DNA of 64,000 bases from Sulfurimonas sp. GTDB lineage: Bacteria; Campylobacterota; Campylobacteria; Campylobacterales; Sulfurimonadaceae. The translations under genes were made by a program, and so were the position numbers. The notes under the pieces were generated by a model. It made no database searches and had not been told where the DNA came from. It saw only the letters and a program-made list of their open reading frames with translations. Within the stretch, counting starts at the first letter, position 1, and each line of letters starts with the position of its first letter. The stretch spans positions 1 through 64,000 of the forward strand of contig NZ_JAQTLH010000009.1 of the NCBI RefSeq assembly GCF_028714975.1, given 5' to 3'. Below, piece by piece: positions 2,203 through 57,253 of the stretch.

Positions 2203-2237
2203 CCGTTTTGCAAATTGTGAGACATAGCTCCCAATCT

Positions 2238-2320
2238 CAAAAAGCTTGCTTTTTGTAGCTTTAGGGGATGCAAGGGACAATGTGTCCCTGCCACTAAAAC
2301 GGACGAGTTCGTTTTAGTGC
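2238..2320 (+). repeat. Intergenic hairpin element, divergent copy A
   Basis: The gap between actP and the DUF294 gene contains three perfect hairpins in a row: CAAAAAGC/GCTTTTTG (2238-2255, 2-base loop), AGGGACA/TGTCCCT (2273-2289, 3-base loop) and CACTAAAACG/CGTTTTAGTG (2292-2319, 8-base loop). The word TAGCTTTAG (2256-2264) after the first hairpin is shared with the elements at 4808, 36510 and 48005. The middle part differs from the other copies, so this is either a diverged or a differently assembled member. The first hairpin could also act as the actP terminator. Confidence 0.6.
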
Positions 2321-4165: not shown

Positions 4166-4786
4166 ATGTTTGATTTTATATCCAAGTTCAAAACCAACTC
4201 AAATCGCAAAAAGCTAAAAGATAAAAATTTTGAGTTTTTGTTTGAGAAAGATTTGAGCGGCGAGTATGTAGTTTTTGATACGGAGACCACGGGACTAAAT
4301 CCAAAAGAGGATGAGATACTCTCCATCGGAGCCGTAAAGATAAAAGATAACAAAATCTTAACATCTCAAACTTTTGAAGTTTTTTTACAAAATTCAAAAG
4401 AGATAAGTTCAAAAAGCATTAAGATTCACGGGATTCGTCCGTTTGATTTGAAAAACGCAAAAACAACAAAGGAGGGCATTGTAGAGTTTTTAAATTTTGT
4501 GGGTTCAAGACCACTTATAGGGTATTATTTGGAGTTTGATGTGAGTATGATAAACAAATACACAAAACCGCTCCTTGGAATAACACTCCCTAACAGAATG
4601 ATTGAAGTTTCAGAAATATACTTTGATAAAACCATTTCACTAATTCCACAAGGAAATATTGATTTACGGTTTGATACAATCTTAAAAAACTGCGGTATTC
4701 CCAACATGGGAGTACACAATGCCGTAAATGATGCAATCATGACGGCTATGATATACCTAAATCTTACTTTTTCAAAGAAAAAGTGA
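4166..4786 (+). CDS. DnaQ-like DEDDh 3'-5' exonuclease
   Basis: 206 residues with the three exonuclease motifs of the polymerase III epsilon type: ExoI VVFDTETTGL (about 32-41), ExoII GYYLEFDVSMI (about 118-128) and ExoIII HNAVNDA (about 184-190), giving the D-E-D-D-H active-site set. It lacks other domains and the polymerase-binding tail cannot be judged, so a true replication-proofreading role is less likely than a stand-alone nuclease. It follows the DUF294 gene by 2 bases and precedes acs, a conserved neighbourhood whose biological reason is not established. Confidence 0.85.
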   Translation: MFDFISKFKTNSNRKKLKDKNFEFLFEKDLSGEYVVFDTETTGLNPKEDEILSIGAVKIKDNKILTSQTFEVFLQNSKEISSKSIKIHGIRPFDLKNAKTTKEGIVEFLNFVGSRPLIGYYLEFDVSMINKYTKPLLGITLPNRMIEVSEIYFDKTISLIPQGNIDLRFDTILKNCGIPNMGVHNAVNDAIMTAMIYLNLTFSKKK

Positions 4787-4790
4787 GTGT

Positions 4791-4875
4791 CTGCCTCGCA
4801 AGAGGCAAGCTTTAGTGCCTTAGCGGCTAGCGTAGATGGCGGAATTACTTCCGACATCGTTTTAAAATTAAATAA
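4791..4875 (+). repeat. Intergenic hairpin element, copy B (upstream of acs)
   Basis: Hairpin 1 is TGCCTC/GAGGCA (4792-4807) with a GCAA loop. It is followed by the shared word AGCTTTAGTG (4808-4817), mini-hairpin GCC-TTAGC-GGC (4817-4827), CTAGCGTAG (4827-4835), and hairpin 3 GATGGCGGAA/TTCCGACATC (4835-4858, loop TTAC, one internal mismatch). The element fills the gap between the exonuclease gene and acs and ends near the acs ribosome site. Copy E at 47961 has the same hairpin 3 with the outer stem changed from GATG/CATC to GGTA/TACC, keeping pairing. Confidence 0.7.
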
Positions 4876-4892: not shown

Positions 4893-6839
4893 ATGCAAAG
4901 AGAAGTTTTTAAACCAAATAGAGAGTTTAGCAAAAATGCTAGAATAAAAAATATGTGTGAGTATCAAGAATTGCAAGAGTTTGCAATGAGAGATTATGAA
5001 GGTTTTTGGGGAAGTTACGCAAAAGAGAAATTAGAGTGGATGGAGCCGTTTCATACTGTTTTGGATGAGAGCAACGCACCGTTTGTGAAGTGGTTTGATG
5101 GCGGAAAATTAAATGTCTCAGTTCAGTGTATCGACCGTCACTTAAATAACCGTAAAAACAAAGCTGCGATTATTTTTGAGGGCGACAGAGGCGACAAGCA
5201 AATCATCACATACTTAGAGCTTTACTACAATGTAAACAAGTTTGCAAACCTGCTCAAAAATGAGTTTGGCGTACAAAAGGGTGATAGAGTCGTTATATAT
5301 ATGCCGATGATTCCAGAAGCTGCTTATGCAATGCTTGCTTGTGCTAGAATCGGTGCAATTCACTCTATCGTATTTGGCGGATTCTCAGCTGAAGCACTAA
5401 AAGACAGAATCATAGATGCAGAGGCAAAAGTGGTTATTACGGCGGATGGTGCTTACAGAAAAGATAAACCGTATATGCTTAAACCTGTTGTTGACGAAGC
5501 ATTAAAAGGCGATACTCCTGTAAAAAAAGTTTTAGTTGTTGAGAGAAACGGCGAAGATGTGACATGGACTGCAGGAAGAGACTACTCTTATAACGAACTT
5601 ATCAAGCATCAAGGCGTTATTTGTGAACCGGAAGTTATGGATGCGGAAGACCCTCTTTTCTTGCTCTACACTTCAGGAAGTACAGGCAAACCTAAAGGCG
5701 TTCAACATAATCAAGCAGGATATATCCTTTGGGCGCAAATGACGATGGAGTGGGTTTTTGATGTAAAAGAGAACGATACTTACTGGTGTACTGCCGATGT
5801 AGGCTGGATTACAGGACACACTTACATAGTTTACGGACCGCTTGCAATGGGTGCAACAACTATTATGTTTGAGGGAGTTCCGACTTATCCTGATGCGGGA
5901 AGACCTTGGAAAATGGTTGAAGAGTATAAAATCAACCAGTTCTATACTGCTCCGACAGCTATCCGTGTTTTACACAAAATGGGTGAAGCAGAACCTGCAA
6001 AATATGACCTCTCTTCTCTAAAAGTTCTAGGAACGGTCGGAGAACCTATCGATCCTCCGGCATGGAAATGGTACTATGAAGCTATCGGCGGTGGCAAATG
6101 CGCAATAGTCGATACTTACTGGCAGACAGAGACAGGCGGACATATCGTATCGCCTCTTCCGGGAGCAACTCCGATCAAACCTGCATGCGCGACATTCCCT
6201 CTTCCTGGAATTATGGCTGAGATTTTAGATGAAAACGGCGTTAAAGCTGAAGTCGGCGAAAAAGGTCTTATGTGCGTAACTCGTCCTTGGCCGTCAATGA
6301 TAAGAAACATCTGGGGAGATAAAGAGAGATTTGTAAAATCTTACTTCGGCGATGTAAAAAAAGATGGCAAACCTGTTTACTTTACGGGTGACGGCGCTAT
6401 CTATGATGAAGAGGGCTACATCACAATTACGGGTAGAACTGATGATGTTATCAATGTTTCAGGTCATCGTATGGGTACGGCTGAAGTTGAAGCAGCCGTT
6501 AAAAAACATCCAAATGTAGCTGAAGTTGCAGTTGTAGGAAAACCTCATGAGATAAAAGGCGAAGGCATCTTTGCTTACATCGTTTTAAAATCGGACAACG
6601 GTGTAGCCGATGAAGTTGAAGAGGTAAAAGCTATCAACAAAGTTATCCAAAAAGAGATAGGAAATATCGCTCTTTGTGATGATGTAGTATTTGTTCCGGG
6701 ACTACCGAAAACTCGCTCTGGTAAAATTATGAGAAGGATTCTTCGCTCAATCGCAAAAGGCGAAGCAATAACTCAAGATATATCAACTCTTGAAGACCCG
6801 AGTATAGTTGAAAAAATAGAGTCTATGGTAAAAAAATAG
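4893..6839 (+). CDS. acs: Acetyl-CoA synthetase (AMP-forming)
   Basis: 648 residues, the usual length for Acs (about 650). It activates acetate to acetyl-CoA through acetyl-AMP in the cytoplasm. Visible motifs are the adenylate-forming P-loop [14 protein letters not shown] (about 259-272), the [10 protein letters not shown] core motif, the FTGDGA and [13 protein letters not shown] region, and the C-terminal [13 protein letters not shown] whose second lysine (K611) is the conserved, acetylation-controlled catalytic residue. AAGGAAAG precedes the ATG. Its place behind actP and DUF294 makes this an acetate scavenging cluster. Confidence 0.97.
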
Positions 6840-33975: not shown

Positions 33976-36486
33976 TTGGATTTAGTGCTGCAAATTGAAG
34001 ATATTATAGAAAAAAACGGTAGTGATTTTGAACTCTCCAAACTCTTTAAAGCCTTTATAAAAGAGTATAAGACTTCCCTGCCGAAACTATTTGAAAAGAG
34101 TCAAGGCAAAGATTTTTTAGTCCGCCACACAAAGCAGTTAGACTCCATCATCTCTTTAATGTACAAAACAGTCCTAAGACGAATGTTTGGAAACTATCTG
34201 CCTATGAGAAGCTCTATCCCCATAGCCATAGTCGCTCTCGGAAGCTATGGGCGGGAGCAGTTGTGCGTTCACAGCGATATAGATCTGCTCATAGTTTATG
34301 AAAAAGTTGACGGCTTTAACAGCGAGTTGATTATAGAAAAGTTTTTCTATTTGGCTCTTGATTCGGGACTAAAACTAGGTCATAGAGTCCATGAAGTAAA
34401 TGATCTCTTTAGTTCTAGCAATAAAGATATTACGATTAAAACTTCGCTTATGGAAGCTAGGTTTGTAACCGGTTCAACTCTTACTTGGCTCTCGTGTTCC
34501 AAAGAGCTAAACAAGATACGACTTCATAATCAAAAAGAGTTTATTCTTGCCAAAATCGAAGAAGCTCAGGCAAGACGAAAAAAATACCCAAATTCTATGC
34601 AGCCCAATGTCAAAGAGAGCGTGGGCGGACTTCGCGACTCCAACCTTATATTTTGGGTGGCAAAAACTATATACGGCATCACAAGCTTAAAAGATTTAAC
34701 GGGAGTTTTGTTCTTAGATGAGGAGTACAAAGAGTATAGAGCGGCACTAGAGCTGCTCTTTCGCGTAAGAAGTGCCTTACATCTCATCGCAAACAAACAA
34801 GAGGATAGACTTCTTTTAGAGCGTATACCTGAAGTCAGCCATCTTTTAGGCTTTGTCAGCCAACAAAAAATGGTTACAAAAGTTCTTGAAGCACAGTGGC
34901 GCATAAGCAACTTTACTCAAATCTTTGTAAAAAAAATGACCAGATCTTTCATAGTCGATATGTCCAATGTATCAAAATTTAGAAAAAATCGTATCAGCAG
35001 AGGTATCTATGAGTCCGATGGCAGAGTTTATGCCTCTTACAATCTTGAGATTTTGCCGCTAAACAAACTCTTAGAGATTTTAGTATCGCTCGATGACAAG
35101 CCTTACCATTTTGATGCGGGGTTTTTAAATCAGCTAACATATACAAAAATCTCCTATCCGCTTCAAACAAAAACATACTCACTCTTAAGAGAGCTCTTTA
35201 AAAGAAAAAATATGTACAGCTTTTTAAAACTGTTTTATGATGCGGGGATACTTCATCATCTGTTTCACACTTTTAAAAAAGTTCTTCATATGCCGCAATT
35301 TGACGGTTATCACTACTATCCTGTAGATATCCACTCCATTAAATGCGTAGAAGCGTTAGAAAATATAAAAGAGCCTTATATAAAAAATATTTACGATGAG
35401 TTTAGTGATGATGAAAAATTGCTGCTAAAAATCGTAACCCTTCTTCACGATACAGGAAAAGGGAGAGTTCAAGATCACAGTGAAGTCGGTGCAAAACTTA
35501 TAGTTCCGTTTGTAAAAAAGATGAAACTAAAAGATGAAGATATTGAGAGATGCGTAACTTTGGTTAAACAGCATGTAACTATGAGCAATGTCGCTTTTAA
35601 ACAAAATATCCATAATGAAAAAACGCTATATAAATTTATGTCAAATGTTGGAGATATGAAAAATCTAAAACTTCTATATGTGCTAACTTATGCGGATATC
35701 AACGGTGTCGGCGGAGACACATATAACTCTTTTAATTCAAATCTTCTTATGGAATTATATGTAAATGCTCTTGAAGTGGCCCAAAACAGCGGAAGAATTA
35801 GCGACGCTACAAAAAGAATCAACATAGAAAAACGCGTACAAAAAGTTCAGGAGTTTATCCAGTTGCCAAAACTGCTGCAAAATAAACTTCTTAGGGTTGA
35901 ATCAAATCTCTTCTTTTTTAAACACACTCCGCACGATATAATCGAAATCGCAAAAAAAGCGGCACAGACTAAAGCTTATGATTTTTCAATTCATACGGAC
36001 GCTTCTCTAATTATAGAAATTTATAGAAAAATCCCGCTAAACATCGGTTATCTTTTAGCATCTCTAAGCCATCTTGATGTAGCGTCTATGGAGATTTTTA
36101 CACTCTTTGACGGGGTAAAATATTTTAAAATAGAGTTTATAGAGCATGTTGAGAGCGATGAAGCGGCAGAGATAGAAAATATCATCAATAACGCTTTTGA
36201 CATGAGTAGACACATAAAACTAAAAGATGTGACGATATACAAACATGAGATAAATATTGATTGTGAACACTCGCTCACACATGCGGAAGTGGCAGTAAAC
36301 ACACAAAATCAAAAAGGTCTTTTAGCTTACATAATGGAATGTTTTGAAGAGCTTGGCATAAATATCGTAACGGCAAAAATCCATAGCACGAAGCATAAAG
36401 TAAGAGATAGCTTTTTAATAGAAAAACAAAACGATATATGCAATAATGTCGCAAAAATATATGAACTACTTACAAAAAAAAGTTAA
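33976..36486 (+). CDS. glnD: GlnD-type PII uridylyltransferase / uridylyl-removing enzyme
   Basis: 836 residues with a TTG start after TTAGGATTC. Domains: nucleotidyltransferase with ALGSYGREQLCVHSDIDLL (about 87-105), a helical GlnD-PII substrate domain (about 200-330), an HD domain with LLHDTGKGRVQDHSEVG (about 488-504), and C-terminal ACT-like repeats (about 690-836). It senses glutamine and modifies PII protein on a Tyr. The ACT region is somewhat short. No glnB is adjacent. Monocistronic start; glmS follows behind element C. Confidence 0.9.
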   Translation: MDLVLQIEDIIEKNGSDFELSKLFKAFIKEYKTSLPKLFEKSQGKDFLVRHTKQLDSIISLMYKTVLRRMFGNYLPMRSSIPIAIVALGSYGREQLCVHSDIDLLIVYEKVDGFNSELIIEKFFYLALDSGLKLGHRVHEVNDLFSSSNKDITIKTSLMEARFVTGSTLTWLSCSKELNKIRLHNQKEFILAKIEEAQARRKKYPNSMQPNVKESVGGLRDSNLIFWVAKTIYGITSLKDLTGVLFLDEEYKEYRAALELLFRVRSALHLIANKQEDRLLLERIPEVSHLLGFVSQQKMVTKVLEAQWRISNFTQIFVKKMTRSFIVDMSNVSKFRKNRISRGIYESDGRVYASYNLEILPLNKLLEILVSLDDKPYHFDAGFLNQLTYTKISYPLQTKTYSLLRELFKRKNMYSFLKLFYDAGILHHLFHTFKKVLHMPQFDGYHYYPVDIHSIKCVEALENIKEPYIKNIYDEFSDDEKLLLKIVTLLHDTGKGRVQDHSEVGAKLIVPFVKKMKLKDEDIERCVTLVKQHVTMSNVAFKQNIHNEKTLYKFMSNVGDMKNLKLLYVLTYADINGVGGDTYNSFNSNLLMELYVNALEVAQNSGRISDATKRINIEKRVQKVQEFIQLPKLLQNKLLRVESNLFFFKHTPHDIIEIAKKAAQTKAYDFSIHTDASLIIEIYRKIPLNIGYLLASLSHLDVASMEIFTLFDGVKYFKIEFIEHVESDEAAEIENIINNAFDMSRHIKLKDVTIYKHEINIDCEHSLTHAEVAVNTQNQKGLLAYIMECFEELGINIVTAKIHSTKHKVRDSFLIEKQNDICNNVAKIYELLTKKS

Positions 36487-36491
36487 AATAT

Positions 36492-36600
36492 CTGCCGCAT
36501 AAAGCGGCAAGCTTTAGTGCCACAGCGGTTAGCGTAGCAAAAGGGACGGGTTCCTTTTGCGTATAAAATCAGATGAAGGGTTCCCTTCATTTTATGCAAT
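36492..36600 (+). repeat. Intergenic hairpin element, copy C (upstream of glmS)
   Basis: The element fills the gap between glnD and glmS. Hairpin 1 TGCCGC/GCGGCA (36493-36509), shared word AGCTTTAGTG (36510-36519), mini-hairpin GCC-ACAGC-GGT (36519-36529), TTAGCGTAG (36529-36537), hairpin 3 GCAAAAGGGA/TTCCTTTTGC (36537-36560, one G-U), hairpin 4 ATGAAGGG/CCCTTCAT (36573-36590). The 3' part, through TTTTATGCAATAAAATTAAG, is nearly the same as in copy E at 47911-47950 (minus) and ends at the Shine-Dalgarno of the next gene. Confidence 0.72.
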
Positions 36601-36620
36601 AAAATTAAGGGAATAATTAA

Positions 36621-38435
36621 ATGTGTGGGATTGTTGGATATATCGGGAAAAAAAACACAAAAGAGATTTTACTCGGTGGGCTTAAAGAGTTAGAGTACCG
36701 CGGTTACGATTCGGCGGGAATAGCAGTTTTACAAAACGGCAGCTTCCATAATTTTAAAGCGGTCGGAAAACTGATAAATCTTGAAGAAAAAACCAAAGAT
36801 TTTGTAACGAGCGGTTTTGCAATCGGTATCGGTCATACGAGATGGGCAACACACGGAAAACCGACGGAGTTAAATGCACATCCGCATTTAGGCGAATTTT
36901 CTTATGTAGTTCATAACGGAATTATCGAAAACTATGCAGAGCTGAAAAAAGAGCTTCAAAATGAAGGAGTGACTTTTTTAAGTCAAACAGATACCGAAGT
37001 AATCGTACATCAGTTTGAAAAAAATCAAAAAACAGCAAAAAATTCCTTTGAAGCGTTTGCAAAAACCATAAAAGAGCTTCACGGCGCTTATGCTATTTTA
37101 CTGGTAACAAAATCCGAACCGGATAGCATCTTTTTTGCAAAACACGGCTCACCGATGTTAGTCGGAGTAAACGGCGAGAGTGAGAAATATTTTGCATCCT
37201 CAGACACTCCTCTTATCGGACATTGTCAAAATGTCAACTACTTTGAAGACGGAGATTACGGATATGTAACTCCTAAAGAAGTAGCTATATATGACAAAAA
37301 CGGAACCAAAAAAGAGGCTAAGTTTTCACCGCTTTTGCAAAACAAACTCTCTGCCCAAAAAGAGGGTTACAGATTTTTTATGGAAAAAGAAATTTATGAA
37401 CAAAGCGTCGTGATTTCCGATACTTTAATGGGAAGAGTCACGGAAGATGGGATTATTTTCGATGAGCTTGAAAAATCTCTCTTTGAGGGCATAAATGAGA
37501 TAAAACTTTGTGCATGCGGAACATCTTATCATGCCGCCATGAGTGCTTCATACCTTTTTGAGAGATACTCAAAAATAAAAACTTCCCTAGAAATCGCAAG
37601 CGAGTTTAGATATAGAGAGCCGATTATGAGCAAAGATACTCTTTTTATCGTAATCTCTCAAAGCGGCGAAACTGCCGACACGCTGGAAACTTTAAAGATG
37701 GCAAAGGCGGCGGGACTTAAAACTTTAGTTATCTGTAATGTCGATAACTCATCAATGGTAAGATTAGCCGACGCAACTATTCTCACAAGAGCCGGCATAG
37801 AAAAAGGTGTGGCTTCAACAAAAGCGTTTGCTACTCAAGTAACTGTTTTTTGGATGCTCTCTTTATATATTGCAAAACTCAAAAACTCTCTTAGCGAGAG
37901 TGAAATAGCTAGGCATATTTCGCTGCTTCGCGAAGTTCCCTCTCATGTAAAAGTGACCGACGATATGCATGAGCGCATTAAAAGATTATCAAAAAGATAT
38001 CTTCACGGTCACGGTTTTTTCTTTATCGGCAGAGATATTTTTTATCCTCTCGCACTTGAGGGCGCACTCAAGCTAAAAGAGATTTCATACCTTCACGCAG
38101 AGGGGTATCCTGCAGGAGAGATGAAACACGGTCCGATTGCATTAGCAGACCCTGAGCTTTTTACAATCGCCCTGCTTCCAAAACATCTTCATTATGAAAA
38201 ATCAAAAAGCAATGTTGAAGAGTTGAGTGCGAGAGATTCTACTATTTGCGCCATTAGCCAAATTCCGTTTGATAAAGCCGATGATTTTATAGAGATTTCT
38301 GCATGTAGAGACTATATGCTGGAGTTTTTTGAAATGATGGTAGTCGTTCAGCTTCTCTCTTTAGAAATTTCTATAAGATTGGGTAATGATGTAGATATGC
38401 CGAGAAACTTAGCAAAAAGCGTAACAGTTGAATAA
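36621..38435 (+). CDS. glmS: Glucosamine-fructose-6-phosphate aminotransferase (isomerizing)
   Basis: 604 residues. The N-terminal glutaminase begins MCGIVGYIG with nucleophile Cys2 after Met removal, with the RWATHGKP region following. Two SIS domains bind the sugar phosphate (LCACGTSYHAAMSASYLFE and VISQSGETADTLE) and the C-terminus ends MPRNLAKSVTVE as in all GlmS. It makes glucosamine-6-phosphate for peptidoglycan and LPS. The leader holds the hairpin element C rather than a recognisable glmS ribozyme. AAGGGAA precedes the ATG. Confidence 0.97.
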   Translation: MCGIVGYIGKKNTKEILLGGLKELEYRGYDSAGIAVLQNGSFHNFKAVGKLINLEEKTKDFVTSGFAIGIGHTRWATHGKPTELNAHPHLGEFSYVVHNGIIENYAELKKELQNEGVTFLSQTDTEVIVHQFEKNQKTAKNSFEAFAKTIKELHGAYAILLVTKSEPDSIFFAKHGSPMLVGVNGESEKYFASSDTPLIGHCQNVNYFEDGDYGYVTPKEVAIYDKNGTKKEAKFSPLLQNKLSAQKEGYRFFMEKEIYEQSVVISDTLMGRVTEDGIIFDELEKSLFEGINEIKLCACGTSYHAAMSASYLFERYSKIKTSLEIASEFRYREPIMSKDTLFIVISQSGETADTLETLKMAKAAGLKTLVICNVDNSSMVRLADATILTRAGIEKGVASTKAFATQVTVFWMLSLYIAKLKNSLSESEIARHISLLREVPSHVKVTDDMHERIKRLSKRYLHGHGFFFIGRDIFYPLALEGALKLKEISYLHAEGYPAGEMKHGPIALADPELFTIALLPKHLHYEKSKSNVEELSARDSTICAISQIPFDKADDFIEISACRDYMLEFFEMMVVVQLLSLEISIRLGNDVDMPRNLAKSVTVE

Positions 38436-47405: not shown

Positions 47406-47903
47406 TTAAATAAAGAGAGGGTCTTCTGATGGCTCTATCTCTTCAAAATCCTCTATAATCTGCTCAAACATCTTCATAGTTTTTTTAGCTTTGTCGGTAT
47501 AATCATCAAAGATTGATTTAGAGTCGGGAAATGCTTCACCTAGTTCTTGATAGATTAAAATGCGACCGTTTATATGTTTGTTAATTTCACAAAAAGCCTC
47601 TTTTAAATACTCTTTTTTTGTTGTATGTCTAAAAAGAGCCTTAATCATATTTGCTCTCTCTTTTATAGGCAGAGATTCACCGATTTCCTCAGCAATTCTC
47701 TTTATATCAAGTCTTGAGAGATAAACTCCGCTGATTGCCGGTGCTAAAAGCTTACTTTTAAGTGCATCCACAAACTGAGGAGCAGGTTCTTCATCCTCTT
47801 TATCTCCGCTCTCAGGGTTGCTGCAATCATTGGTTGAACAATTATTATCTTTTACAAACTTATCAAACTCTGCTCTTAAATCACTTAAATCATGTTGGTT
47901 CAT
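47406..47903 (-). CDS. Hypothetical protein linked to molybdoenzyme accessory genes
   Basis: 165 residues, soluble. The first 45 residues are polar with two Cys (NNCSTNDCSNPESGDKEDEE), the rest is helical with LAPAISGVYLSRLDIKRIAEE and a very acidic end EDFEEIEPSEDPLF. No known family is recognised. It is the last gene of a minus-strand series (TorD-like chaperone, ferredoxin, AroE-like protein) and has its own leader containing element E. A role in maturation or transport of a molybdenum enzyme is only a guess from its neighbours. Confidence 0.7.
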   Translation of the reverse strand: MNQHDLSDLRAEFDKFVKDNNCSTNDCSNPESGDKEDEEPAPQFVDALKSKLLAPAISGVYLSRLDIKRIAEEIGESLPIKERANMIKALFRHTTKKEYLKEAFCEINKHINGRILIYQELGEAFPDSKSIFDDYTDKAKKTMKMFEQIIEDFEEIEPSEDPLFI

Positions 47904-47928
47904 ACTATTATTCCTTAATTTTATTTCA

Positions 47929-48030
47929 TAAAATGAAGGAAACCCCTCATTAATTACTACGGTATCGGAAGTAATTCCGCTACCTACGCTAAGACCGCTA
48001 TGGTCACTAAAGCTAAGCTCTATCGAGCTA
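47929..48030 (-). repeat. Intergenic hairpin element, copy E
   Basis: Reading the minus strand: hairpin 1 AGCTC-GATA-GAGCT (48029 to 48016), AGCTTTAGTG (48014 to 48005), mini-hairpin ACC-ATAGC-GGT (48004 to 47994), TTAGCGTAG (47992 to 47984), hairpin 3 GGTAGCGGAA/TTCCGATACC (47984 to 47961, loop TTAC), hairpin 4 ATGAGGG/CCTTCAT (47950 to 47933), then ATTAAGGAATAA as ribosome site of the next gene. Compared with copies B and C, three stems differ on both sides and still pair. Confidence 0.72.
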
Positions 48031-48037
48031 GAACTTC

Positions 48038-48835
48038 TTAAAACCTCATATCGCTTTTATCATATTCTAAATGTTTTTTCTCTTTTAAATACTCAAACAT
48101 TACGCTGCTTAACTCATCTAACATATCATCAAAGCCTATATAAGCCGCTCCGAGTTCATGCGCTCTTACTTTAAGCGGCGAAAACTCTTTTTTACTCTTC
48201 ATATCCAAATTTATACCGCTAAGTTTTTTTATCATACTTAAAATATCCAAATCGGAGAAATCGACAATTGCATCATACGCAGAAAAATCCACATCCATAC
48301 CCTCGGCTATGCGGTTGATATCTGCATTATCTATTTTCATATCAATAGTAAATTTCATCAATCTCTCTAAATCATTATAAAAATAGCTTATCTCAAAACC
48401 CTCTGCCAAGAAGCAAAATGCTTTGGCATAATCGCCAGTTCCGATAAGAGCTACTTTTTTTACGCCTCTGTTTTTTAAAAACTTTATCATAGCAAGTGGC
48501 GTAACTACATCGCCTATTAACTTTTGTCCGTCTCTTAAAACTATATCGCACATACCAGAAATTTTAACCGCATCCGATGAATCATCTAAAATCTCTACTA
48601 CATTTTTTACATATTCACCCGAGATTAGTGCACCGTTAACGTGCGATTTTTTCATATTTACAGCGGTAAAATAAAAATCATCTTCTCGTATGTTCATAGG
48701 AATCATCATTGCGTCTTTATTGTTTGCCTTAAAGAGCTTATTAAGCGTTGCAGAGACACTGCTCTGCCCTGCACTCTCGCCTATAAAACCGTAAAGCTTT
48801 GTGTGATGAGATATCTCATTGCCGTTGTTCATCAT
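48038..48835 (-). CDS. Shikimate dehydrogenase (AroE)-like protein, probably not housekeeping
   Basis: 265 residues. The N-terminus YGFIGESAGQSSVSATLNKLF and IPMNIREDDFYFTAVNMKKS follow the outline of the AroE substrate domain (GxIGxP-x-x-HS...N), and KKVALIGTGDYAKAF is a Rossmann-type turn where AroE has GAGGA. Key AroE residues (the catalytic Lys and Asp of NVTxPxK) are not clearly kept, so enzyme activity as shikimate dehydrogenase is doubtful. It overlaps the ferredoxin gene by 4 bases, which binds it to the molybdoenzyme accessory group. Confidence 0.6.
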   Translation of the reverse strand: MMNNGNEISHHTKLYGFIGESAGQSSVSATLNKLFKANNKDAMMIPMNIREDDFYFTAVNMKKSHVNGALISGEYVKNVVEILDDSSDAVKISGMCDIVLRDGQKLIGDVVTPLAMIKFLKNRGVKKVALIGTGDYAKAFCFLAEGFEISYFYNDLERLMKFTIDMKIDNADINRIAEGMDVDFSAYDAIVDFSDLDILSMIKKLSGINLDMKSKKEFSPLKVRAHELGAAYIGFDDMLDELSSVMFEYLKEKKHLEYDKSDMRF

Positions 48836-54482: not shown

Positions 54483-54569
54483 AAAAGACCCATCTTATAT
54501 TATTTGTGCCATTATAAATACTTTTTAGTATAATTTTGCTTTTATTACAAAATAGGAGTCCGGTTTTGA

Positions 54570-54600
54570 CTACGCTAACCGCCATAAACGGCTAAAGCCT
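54570..54600 (-). repeat. Intergenic hairpin element, partial copy D
   Basis: Minus strand: GCTTTAGCCGTTTATGGCGG then TTAGCGTAG. The start lies on the kinase stop codon, and the mini-hairpin is GCCG/CGGT. Hairpins 1 and 4 of the full element are missing. A weak CAAAA...TTTTG pairing (54566 to 54546) may correspond to hairpin 3. Confidence 0.5.
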
Positions 54601-57253
54601 AAACAATTTTTATCTTCGCCACCCTCTCTTTTATCTTCTCGAATGCGGCTTCATATTTGTATTTGCTCTCTTTGCTCTTAGCCATGCTTTCCATCTTTGC
54701 GCTCTCTTCTTGTATATCTTCAAGTCTAAAGTTGCCGCTTGAACCTTTTATGCTGTGAGCGACAAGTGCTATCTTTTTATAATCTCTTAGTTCGATAGCA
54801 TTTTGCAGTTCAGGAATCTGTATTTGCATTTTTTTAATAAAAAGTTCTACAAGCATTTTCAACTCATCGCTGCTTAGCATTAACTCCTGAGTCAATTTTT
54901 CACAATCCAAACCTTCTATATTGCATTTGGTTTCGGCACTGTTTGGCGTGCCGATACTCTCTTTAGTAATTTTTAAATAATTAAAAAATACTCTCTCCAA
55001 CTCTTTTATAACGATAGGTTTTCCCAAAAATGAGTCAAAACCGCTTTGAAGCCCTCTCTCTTTTGCACCCTTAATTACATTTGCAGTCAAAGCAGATACC
55101 GGAGTGTGTCTTAGTCCTTTTTCTTTTTCATACTTTATGATTGCCAAAACGGCTGCATTTCCATCCATTACAGGCATCTGTTCATCCATCAAAATCAAAT
55201 CATAATTATTTTTTTTATAAAGATTTACCGCTTCAAGTCCGTTTGTAGCCAAATCGTAAGTAAGTCCATACTTGTCAAGCAGTATCTTAATCAGCTCTTG
55301 ATTTGCTATATTGTCTTCTGCTATGAGAATGTGTCCTGAGAATTTTTTACCTCCGTCTACTCTGAAAGGGCAAAAAAGCTCAGGATGGAAAAGTTCATCA
55401 AAAGCGCTTTTTATTTTTGAACAGTAGAGCGGAAAATATATAGAAGATATATGAAAATATTTTTCATACTTATCATCCGGTTTACTTGCTAAGATAATAT
55501 ATTTTTCATTTGAATCCAATATCTTATCTTTGATTTTATCATCAATGTCTTCTTCTAAAACTATGGCTATATCATACTCTTTATCAAGACTTTCTACAAC
55601 ATCTATCTCTATATTAAACATTTTTACATATTTTAAAAATGAGTCTGTTTTATAATTAGAAGTGCCGTTTTTTAGATATAAAACGATTTTTAGCGCTTTA
55701 ATCTCATCTATATCGTTAAAGATTTTACACTCTTTGCTATGGATCTCAACCGGAATTTCAATCCAAAATGTACTCCCCTCGCCGAGCGTCGATTTTACAA
55801 ATATATCTCCGCCCATATGTTTTGAGAGCTGATGACATATTGAGAGTCCCAAACCCGTACCCTCATAATTTTCAATACCCTCATGATTTGCCTGAGTAAA
55901 AGCCGAAAATATATTTTTTAAATCCTCTTTTGCGATACCAACCCCATTGTCGCTTACGCTGACTTTTAAAACTTCATTATCACATGTAACTTCTACATGT
56001 ATATGACCGCCCGCTTTTGTAAATTTTATGGCGTTGCTTAAAAAATTCGATAATATCTGCTTTATTCTAAGGGCATCTGCATAGAGCTCTTTTGGGATTT
56101 TCGGGTCTATAAAAGAGGTGATAGTTATATCTCTTGAGTTTGCCGAAGCAACAAATAACTCCAGCGCATGGCTTATCTCTTCATGAATCGAAAATATTTT
56201 CGGCTCAATGGTAAACTCACCGCTTCTTAGTTTTGAAAAATCCAAAATATCGTTAATGATACTAAGTAAATTCTCTCCGCTGTTTAAAATAATCTCTAAA
56301 TATTTTCTATGCTGTTTTGAAACATCTTTATCTATAAGTAGATTTACAAAGCCAAGTATCGCATTTAAAGGTGTTCTTATTTCGTGTGACATATTTGACA
56401 AGAAGTACTCTTTTGCTCTTGAGGCTTTTTGTGCTTCAAGTCTTGCGTCTACCAATTTTGTGACATCATTTGCAATGGATATATACTCAATAGAATTATC
56501 ATACGGATCCGTTATTTTTACAATCGTTACATCGACATAAAAATAGTCTCCGTCTTTCTTGTTATTTTTAATCGTTCCACGAAAAACATCCGCATGTTTA
56601 AGCTGAAACCATAAATCATCAAAATATTCCTGAGGCATATCTTCATGTTTAAATATGCTATGCTTGCTCCCTATTAGCTCATCAGCACTGTAACCGCTCA
56701 ATTTTATATACTTATCGTTTACATAGGTGATTTTGCCGTCCATATCCGTTTTAGAGATGATAGAACTCTCATCCAACGCTTTTTGATACTCGCTCAAGAG
56801 CTTTACATGCCGATTTATCTCTTGCTCTTTTTGAAAAATGGTGTCGGTGTAGTGTCTTAAGACTCCACGAAAATTTTGATCAAACAAAAAAGATATCTCA
56901 TCAAAAATCGCCTTTGAATTGAGCTTTACATCGTATGTAAAATCAATCATCGACTTTCTAAAATGGCTGCATATTTCAAAGAGTTCATCCGCTCTGATAT
57001 CTCTGTCTTTTAGATAGACTAGAAGATTTTGCATATTCGGACAGTCACCGATCTCTACTTCACCCGATATAACCCACATAAAATAGTCAAACACGCCGCC
57101 TGCGTACTCGTTTAGAAACTGTTTTTTATCTATCGCATGAACATTCAATATCTTTTGTGGAGACTCGTATGACACCCACTGCAGAAGAATAATCTCTTTT
57201 GCCGACATGAAAATATCTCTGTTTTTTACAAGAATCGGTACTTTTCTTTCCAT
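54599..57253 (-). CDS. Hybrid sensor histidine kinase (PAS-HK-REC-HPT)
   Basis: 884 residues, no membrane helix, so cytoplasmic. An N-terminal helical domain (about 15-150, not recognised) with one Cys motif, a PAS domain (about 163-280, VNDKYIKLSGYSADELIG), HisKA with SHEIRTPLNAILGF (about 293-306), HATPase with DNGVGIAKEDL and GTGLGLSI, an extra degenerate segment, receiver with LILMDEQMPVMDG (Asp about 702), and an HPT domain with AHSIKGSSGNF (His about 835). This is a full internal phosphorelay whose output partner is not in the window. It starts 16 bases after pepN. Confidence 0.88.
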   Translation of the reverse strand: MERKVPILVKNRDIFMSAKEIILLQWVSYESPQKILNVHAIDKKQFLNEYAGGVFDYFMWVISGEVEIGDCPNMQNLLVYLKDRDIRADELFEICSHFRKSMIDFTYDVKLNSKAIFDEISFLFDQNFRGVLRHYTDTIFQKEQEINRHVKLLSEYQKALDESSIISKTDMDGKITYVNDKYIKLSGYSADELIGSKHSIFKHEDMPQEYFDDLWFQLKHADVFRGTIKNNKKDGDYFYVDVTIVKITDPYDNSIEYISIANDVTKLVDARLEAQKASRAKEYFLSNMSHEIRTPLNAILGFVNLLIDKDVSKQHRKYLEIILNSGENLLSIINDILDFSKLRSGEFTIEPKIFSIHEEISHALELFVASANSRDITITSFIDPKIPKELYADALRIKQILSNFLSNAIKFTKAGGHIHVEVTCDNEVLKVSVSDNGVGIAKEDLKNIFSAFTQANHEGIENYEGTGLGLSICHQLSKHMGGDIFVKSTLGEGSTFWIEIPVEIHSKECKIFNDIDEIKALKIVLYLKNGTSNYKTDSFLKYVKMFNIEIDVVESLDKEYDIAIVLEEDIDDKIKDKILDSNEKYIILASKPDDKYEKYFHISSIYFPLYCSKIKSAFDELFHPELFCPFRVDGGKKFSGHILIAEDNIANQELIKILLDKYGLTYDLATNGLEAVNLYKKNNYDLILMDEQMPVMDGNAAVLAIIKYEKEKGLRHTPVSALTANVIKGAKERGLQSGFDSFLGKPIVIKELERVFFNYLKITKESIGTPNSAETKCNIEGLDCEKLTQELMLSSDELKMLVELFIKKMQIQIPELQNAIELRDYKKIALVAHSIKGSSGNFRLEDIQEESAKMESMAKSKESKYKYEAAFEKIKERVAKIKIV

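Follow-up and report, generated by a model that had tools for sequence, protein, structure and literature searches.

A probable dispersed mobile-type repeat with three hairpins and a GTAG tag in Sulfurimonas and other Campylobacterota

The gap between a shikimate-dehydrogenase-like gene (48038–48835, minus strand) and a 165-aa ORF (47406–47903, minus strand) in Sulfurimonas sp. contains a segment with three hairpins, and similar segments recur in the surrounding DNA. This raises the question of whether the segment acts as an RNA on the genes beside it or is a repeat whose folding is maintained irrespective of them. We examined this question in a window of 64,000 nucleotides (contig NZ_JAQTLH010000009.1, positions 1–64,000 of the forward strand), in the 2.06-Mb genome to which the window belongs and in related genomes.

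Copies in the window and the genome

The initial annotation of the window listed five copies of the element, near positions 2238, 4791, 36492, 47929 and 54570. Covariance model R1, run on the window with filters off, recovered three of these (E-values from 2e-17 to 5e-11) and nothing further below E = 0.4. Copy 1 (4790–4863, plus strand) was identified by its fold and its R1 match (85.9 bits, E = 2.1e-17), and lies between genes of the 3'-5' exonuclease (4166–4786) and acetate--CoA ligase (4893–6839) families. Copy 2 (36491–36565, plus strand; 85.8 bits, E = 2.2e-17) is flanked by a glnD-like gene (33976–36486) and glmS (36621–38435). Copy 3, in the gap described above, spans 47956–48032 on the minus strand (57.2 bits, E = 4.5e-11) and reads TCTAGCTCGATAGAGCTTAGCTTTAGTGACCATAGCGGTCTTAGCGTAGGTAGCGGAATTACTTCCGATACCGTAGT. 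All three copies share one architecture, composed of a hairpin of the TGCCTC..GAGGCA type (HP1), the word AGCTTTAG, a short hairpin of the GCC..GGC type (HP2), GTAG, and a third hairpin of 10–11 pairs (HP3) followed by CGT. These parts correspond to 4792–4807, 4808–4815, 4817–4827, 4832–4835 and 4835–4858 in copy 1, and to 36493–36509, 36510–36517, 36519–36529, 36534–36537 and 36537–36560 in copy 2. In copy 3, GTAG occupies 47984–47987 and HP3 about 47961–47984.

The two other listed copies do not belong to this set. The segment at 54570 gave no R1 match even with filters off and a fold z of −0.4. It has TTAGCGTAG and a GCC..GGC hairpin in common with the family, and it lacks HP1. Based on this, the region 54545–54605 (minus strand), which contains GGCTTTAGCCGTTTATGGCGGTTAGCGTAG and a broken HP3, is possibly a remnant and at most that. 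The segment at 2236–2320 (plus strand; fold z −4.2) belongs to a distinct sister repeat, here termed family B, which pairs AAAAAGC with GCTTTTTGTAGCTTTAGGGG, AAGGGAC with GTCCCT and CACTAAAACGGAC with GTTCGTTTTAGTG, and has AGCTTTAG in common with the main family. A pattern search identified 5–7 genome copies of family B. This sister repeat was also seen at L365, L366 and L370, and has TAGCTTTAG and a final hairpin resembling HP3. On its own, AGCTTTAG is not enriched in the window (5 occurrences, 4.5 expected), whereas YTAGCGTAG occurs four times against 0.74 expected, a count reached in none of 100 shuffles.

The family is far larger than its three true window copies suggest, since the calibrated R1 model identified 47 copies in the genome with E below 1e-4. 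The conserved unit is about 75 nt (73–77 nt) and retains the order HP1, short HP2, GTAG, HP3, CGT. With at most one mismatch allowed, AGCTTTAGTGCC occurs 49 times in the genome and its reversed control 5 times; YTAGCGTAG is present at 56 places, about half of which are the element. GTAG precedes HP3 at 153 of 178 sites, about half of these having been fetched by a pattern that requires GTAG, and the commonest form, GTAG, HP3 and CGT, was likewise selected in part by the search pattern. GAAG and other tag variants are also present in this genome. The consensus begins with TCTGCC and ends with GCGTNTA, which are not inverted repeats. The composition is modular: some copies have an extra hairpin upstream, and downstream modules of two kinds can follow. 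A promoter-like TATAAT precedes some copies, at a frequency that a rough estimate places no higher than chance for the given base composition.

An optional leader module follows copy 2 (36569–36613, plus strand; R2 match of 53 bits) and copy 3 (47909–47955, minus strand; R2 match of 51.8 bits). The module of copy 3 ends in the ribosome-binding sequence AAGGA ahead of the ATG at 47903. That of copy 2 folds, and is predicted to form either of two mutually exclusive hairpins, GATGAAGGG..CCCTTCAT or TTCCCTT..AAGGGAA, the latter of which would cover the glmS Shine-Dalgarno sequence. The genome has 7–8 copies of this module (HP4/HP5), which nearly always adjoin the element. We detected weak covariation for the TTCCCTT..AAGGGAA pairing and none for GATGAAGGG..CCCTTCAT. 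We considered a ribosome-binding-site switch in this module as the main function and dropped it, because the covariation is weak or absent and the module occupies fewer than ten places in the genome.

Pairing, covariation and the folding strand

The compensatory changes first described in the window are exact: stem 3 is GATGGCGGAA/TTCCGACATC in one copy and GGTAGCGGAA/TTCCGATACC in another, and the mini-hairpins are GCC-GGC, GCC-GGT and ACC-GGT, as stated. The broader proposal, that the element is either a structured RNA or a repeat maintained because it folds, was borne out in 18 copies from this genome, for which we drew a 20-pair structure by hand. In these copies 96.1% of cells were paired and 13 of the 20 pairs had changed on both sides; none of 500 shuffles matched the copies in any of five measures, and structures slid along the alignment paired 27–48% of cells. 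We also compared copies in place, using 29 disjoint pairs of sites taken as orthologous because the DNA on either side is alike (flank identity about 71–92%). Over 579 pair cells, double changes kept pairing in 44 cases and broke it in 5, and single changes kept it in 23 and broke it in 19; independent change of the two sides predicts 8.7 double changes. The covariation is real.

Pairing is kept irrespective of the direction of the neighbouring genes, since antisense copies compensate and pair as well as sense copies do. Kept double changes numbered 25 in 8 antisense ortholog pairs and 14 in 9 sense pairs, and the paired fraction was 95.2% in antisense and 95.3% in sense copies (94–96% over all gene contexts).

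The G-U pairs and A-C mismatches in the stems are informative about the strand. Among 192 distinct copies, G-U outnumbered A-C by 231 to 25, and by 110 to 20 once two positions that usually carry G-U were removed (p = 3e-16, uncorrected for relatedness); a smaller in-place test gave 23 against 10 (p = 0.035). These p-values are optimistic, because the model itself slightly favours G-U and the copies are related. The G-U:A-C ratio was 48:4 in sense copies and 16:6 in antisense copies. As a strand-symmetric process would yield G-U and A-C in equal numbers, the excess points to the sense strand of the element as the folding molecule, and the constrained molecule appears from these counts to be this folded strand, either as RNA or as single-stranded DNA.

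Mutation could also produce matching changes without selection, through template switching in imperfect palindromes together with exchange of whole hairpins between copies. Several orthologous pairs (L274/L156, L240/L279 and L289/L281) show many adjacent double changes confined to a single stem, as a hairpin swap would leave them, and the tandem duplications described below indicate slippage or recombination at element sites. Based on these cases, hairpin swapping or template switching probably contributes to the clustered double changes. In contrast, isolated single compensations occur within otherwise identical copies (L184/L077 and L285/L067), and strand-symmetric mutation would not prefer G-U to A-C, an asymmetry for which swapping or template switching does not easily account. 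We regard mutation as an improbable explanation of the pairing as a whole.

Genomic setting and distribution

The three true window copies lie in the sense orientation between codirectional genes, as the initial annotation described, whereas the family as a whole does not follow this rule. Among 178 non-redundant sites, both neighbouring genes were sense at 77 and antisense at 43, with 19 convergent and 14 divergent gaps and the remainder cut off or ambiguous; ORFs were assigned by a simple longest-ORF rule, so that single assignments may be wrong. Compared with 255 element-free gaps at the same loci (147 codirectional, 34 convergent and 74 divergent), divergent gaps were avoided (14 of 153 against 74 of 255, p = 7e-6). 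A random placement relative to gene direction had been named as an outcome that would speak against a structured element, and the result is mixed: this avoidance is clear, and sense copies exceed antisense ones by 28:7 in this genome but by just 49:36 in the others. Copies usually adjoin a stop codon, many are located within apparent operons just ahead of the next ribosome-binding site, and the genes around them are mutually unrelated.

The search of the genome and its relatives with a covariance model, suggested at the outset, returned the 47 copies described above and matched 54 of 99 relatives. Within a single genus the count ranged from 0 to 49 copies per genome, and occurrence across Sulfurimonas, Sulfuricurvum and Sulfurospirillum is patchy. 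In 397 genomes of the phylum with at least 90% completeness, where copies were counted up to a maximum of 12 per genome, R1 matched 77, from 13 of 68 genera. A 26-base pattern run against 84,980 species genomes gave, among the matches listed, Campylobacterota only, namely Sulfurimonas, Sulfuricurvum, Sulfurospirillum and records titled Helicobacteraceae or Helicobacter. The 72,556 plasmid and 50,697 phage records contained no match; in IMG/VR, two contigs carry a copy, which in the one inspected sits between genes as usual. Rfam 15 at its gathering score returned only a tRNA in the window and no match for the element, and we found no description of it in the open literature. As far as these two sources show, the family is undescribed.

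Many copies are long-lived at orthologous sites, and presence at other sites varies between close relatives. Upstream of rpmF, Sulfurimonas species carry the full element, a shortened form (in one case HP3 only), other hairpin variants or, in several, nothing. In variants at this site (L196, L201, L202 and L207), GCACC..GGTGC replaces HP1, and HP3 and the leader module are similar. The amtB-glnK gap contains three tandem copies here and none in the closest relative, G021, whose GlnK is 97% identical; likewise, one copy is found here upstream of sucC (96% identical) and none in G021. Another repeat, approximately AAGGCYTAAAGGCCAGTGCAG...CTGTAAAAGCGTAA, occupies the mdh-sucC site in L333, L337, L343, L352 and L339, and is tandem in L339. 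We saw no target-site duplication in the comparisons of filled and empty sites at rpmF, glnK and sucC, where the flanks are too diverged for a firm comparison. Arrays run head-to-tail with a period of about 74–96 nt (L066, L070, L151, L182 and L183) and can carry flanking DNA, as in L077/L184, where the duplicated stretch includes the last part of the upstream gene as well as the element.

Known repeats, rival explanations and meaning

Among the closest parallels are the REPs, which are imperfect palindromes with a GTAG tag, form stem subfamilies related by complementary changes and lie between unidirectional or convergent genes (PMC3733652). They are credited to RAYT (REP-associated tyrosine) transposases. 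The element shares the GTAG-tagged palindrome, the compensatory stem subfamilies and this intergenic placement; clusters reiterated with flanking DNA and a strongly strain-variable abundance are further REP features seen here (PMC3733652). Membership of the classical GTAG REPs, with a RAYT as mobiliser, would explain the GTAG immediately ahead of a 10–11 bp hairpin, as well as subfamilies and placement already known for REPs (PMC3733652). However, REPs are single stem-loops of 20–40 bp, whereas this element has 73–77 nt, two extra hairpins and a conserved unpaired core, and its arrays are head-to-tail, unlike the head-head and tail-tail dimers that predominate in REPs. RAYT genes are flanked by REPs in some genomes. 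We searched this genome and 98 relatives with the PF01797 profile and found no R1 match flanking 31 Y1_Tnp loci (about 1.5 kb on either side of the best matches). The enzymes of about 260 aa examined in relatives also have no such element in their flanks. The sole Y1_Tnp gene of this genome, an IS200-like Y1 transposase-SapC fusion of 459 aa (L059:487-1866:-), has no copies nearby; similar frames of 460–480 aa are present in several relatives. Several of the ~260-aa Y1 genes (L134, L135 and L147 among them) possess their own terminal inverted repeats, for example AGGGGTCAGGGCTAAA / TTTAGCCCTGACCCCT, which are unrelated to the element. With the flanks of the 31 Y1_Tnp loci element-free and several of these enzymes bearing ends of their own, we rejected RAYT linkage and consider mobilisation by a RAYT improbable.

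Other repeats offer partial likenesses. BOX, RUP and SPRITE of Streptococcus pneumoniae are modular intergenic stem-loops with a patchy occurrence among relatives, and are considered parasites that can influence the genes transcribed with them (PMC3049150). Unlike a BOX-type MITE, the consensus here is without terminal inverted repeats, and sequence and phylum are unrelated. CGTC-tagged REPs, reported in the campylobacterotan Sulfurovum, are also dispersed palindromes without an associated transposase (PMC3733652), and differ in tag and stem. The word of that type, GTCATTGCGAG, occurs in this genome separately from the element (L060:1439-1449, L065 and L059:457-467). As judged from sequence features, the element would best be filed with the REP/BOX-like dispersed repeats, where it has part of the defining features of each group and departs from the REPs in unit size, RAYT linkage and dimer type, and from BOX in terminal inverted repeats.

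Regulation of the adjacent genes is the main reading to be weighed against a repeat. A cis-acting intercistronic RNA, kept for processing, attenuation, protection of 5' or 3' mRNA ends or Shine-Dalgarno sequestration, would fit the sense bias of this genome, the preference for G-U on the sense strand, which is stronger in sense copies, and the predicted ability of the leader module of copies 2 and 3 to hide a ribosome-binding site. However, antisense, convergent and divergent copies are equally structured, antisense copies compensate in place as often, the neighbouring genes are unrelated, close relatives lack copies at the same sites, and most copies have no U-tract after HP3. About one-third of codirectional copies are antisense and equally well paired, so that conservation on account of an intercistronic role in attenuation, processing or mRNA stability, as first proposed, is unsupported. 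We consider this reading unlikely and find no support for a dedicated regulatory role; the sense bias here (28:7) and the long survival of many orthologous copies still allow some function for the host. Look-alike intrinsic terminators would account for hairpins close to stop codons. Such a reading is already contradicted by the long conserved unpaired core with HP1 and HP2, by T runs after HP3 of at most three in 158 of 178 copies and by the many copies in apparent operons right before the next ribosome-binding site, and it retains very little probability.

A dispersed mobile-type repeat fits the pattern better than a regulatory RNA. We assign a probability of roughly 0.7 to the reading that the element is a dispersed, probably non-autonomous, mobile-type repeat of Campylobacterota, about 75 bp long, which combines a GTAG-tagged, REP-like HP3 with two upstream hairpins and optional flanking modules. 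This reading draws on the multiple copies, their range of 0–49 between congeners, the empty sites in the closest relative, head-to-tail amplification with flanking DNA, avoidance of divergent gaps, the usual position next to a stop codon, and pairing that is kept between copies and in place in either orientation. Recognition of the folded sense strand, by a trans-acting enzyme or during replication and recombination in the host, may be what spreads such a repeat, in which case copies with paired stems would propagate and persist. Co-transcribed copies would add hairpins to mRNAs that may be tolerated or mildly useful, and selection would act against copies that interrupt coding sequence, ribosome-binding sites or promoters. 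A bolder proposal is that the family represents a novel class of dispersed element in bacteria that is not mobilised by a Y1 transposase, spreads via its folded sense strand (tolerant of G-U, hence possibly RNA), evolves its stems by whole-hairpin exchange and keeps pairing in either orientation to host genes; we hold this to be quite unlikely.

The family cautions that covariation alone is insufficient to call covarying intergenic hairpins regulatory RNAs. Because exact double changes distinguish so many of its orthologous copies, it is also a good natural test of how hairpin pairing is upheld, and could discriminate between selection acting on RNA, selection acting on single-stranded DNA and hairpin-templated mutation. 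If the repeat reading is true, free-living Campylobacterota would have a well-defined, undescribed repeat family in which a REP-like GTAG hairpin is joined to further hairpins, without a known mobiliser.
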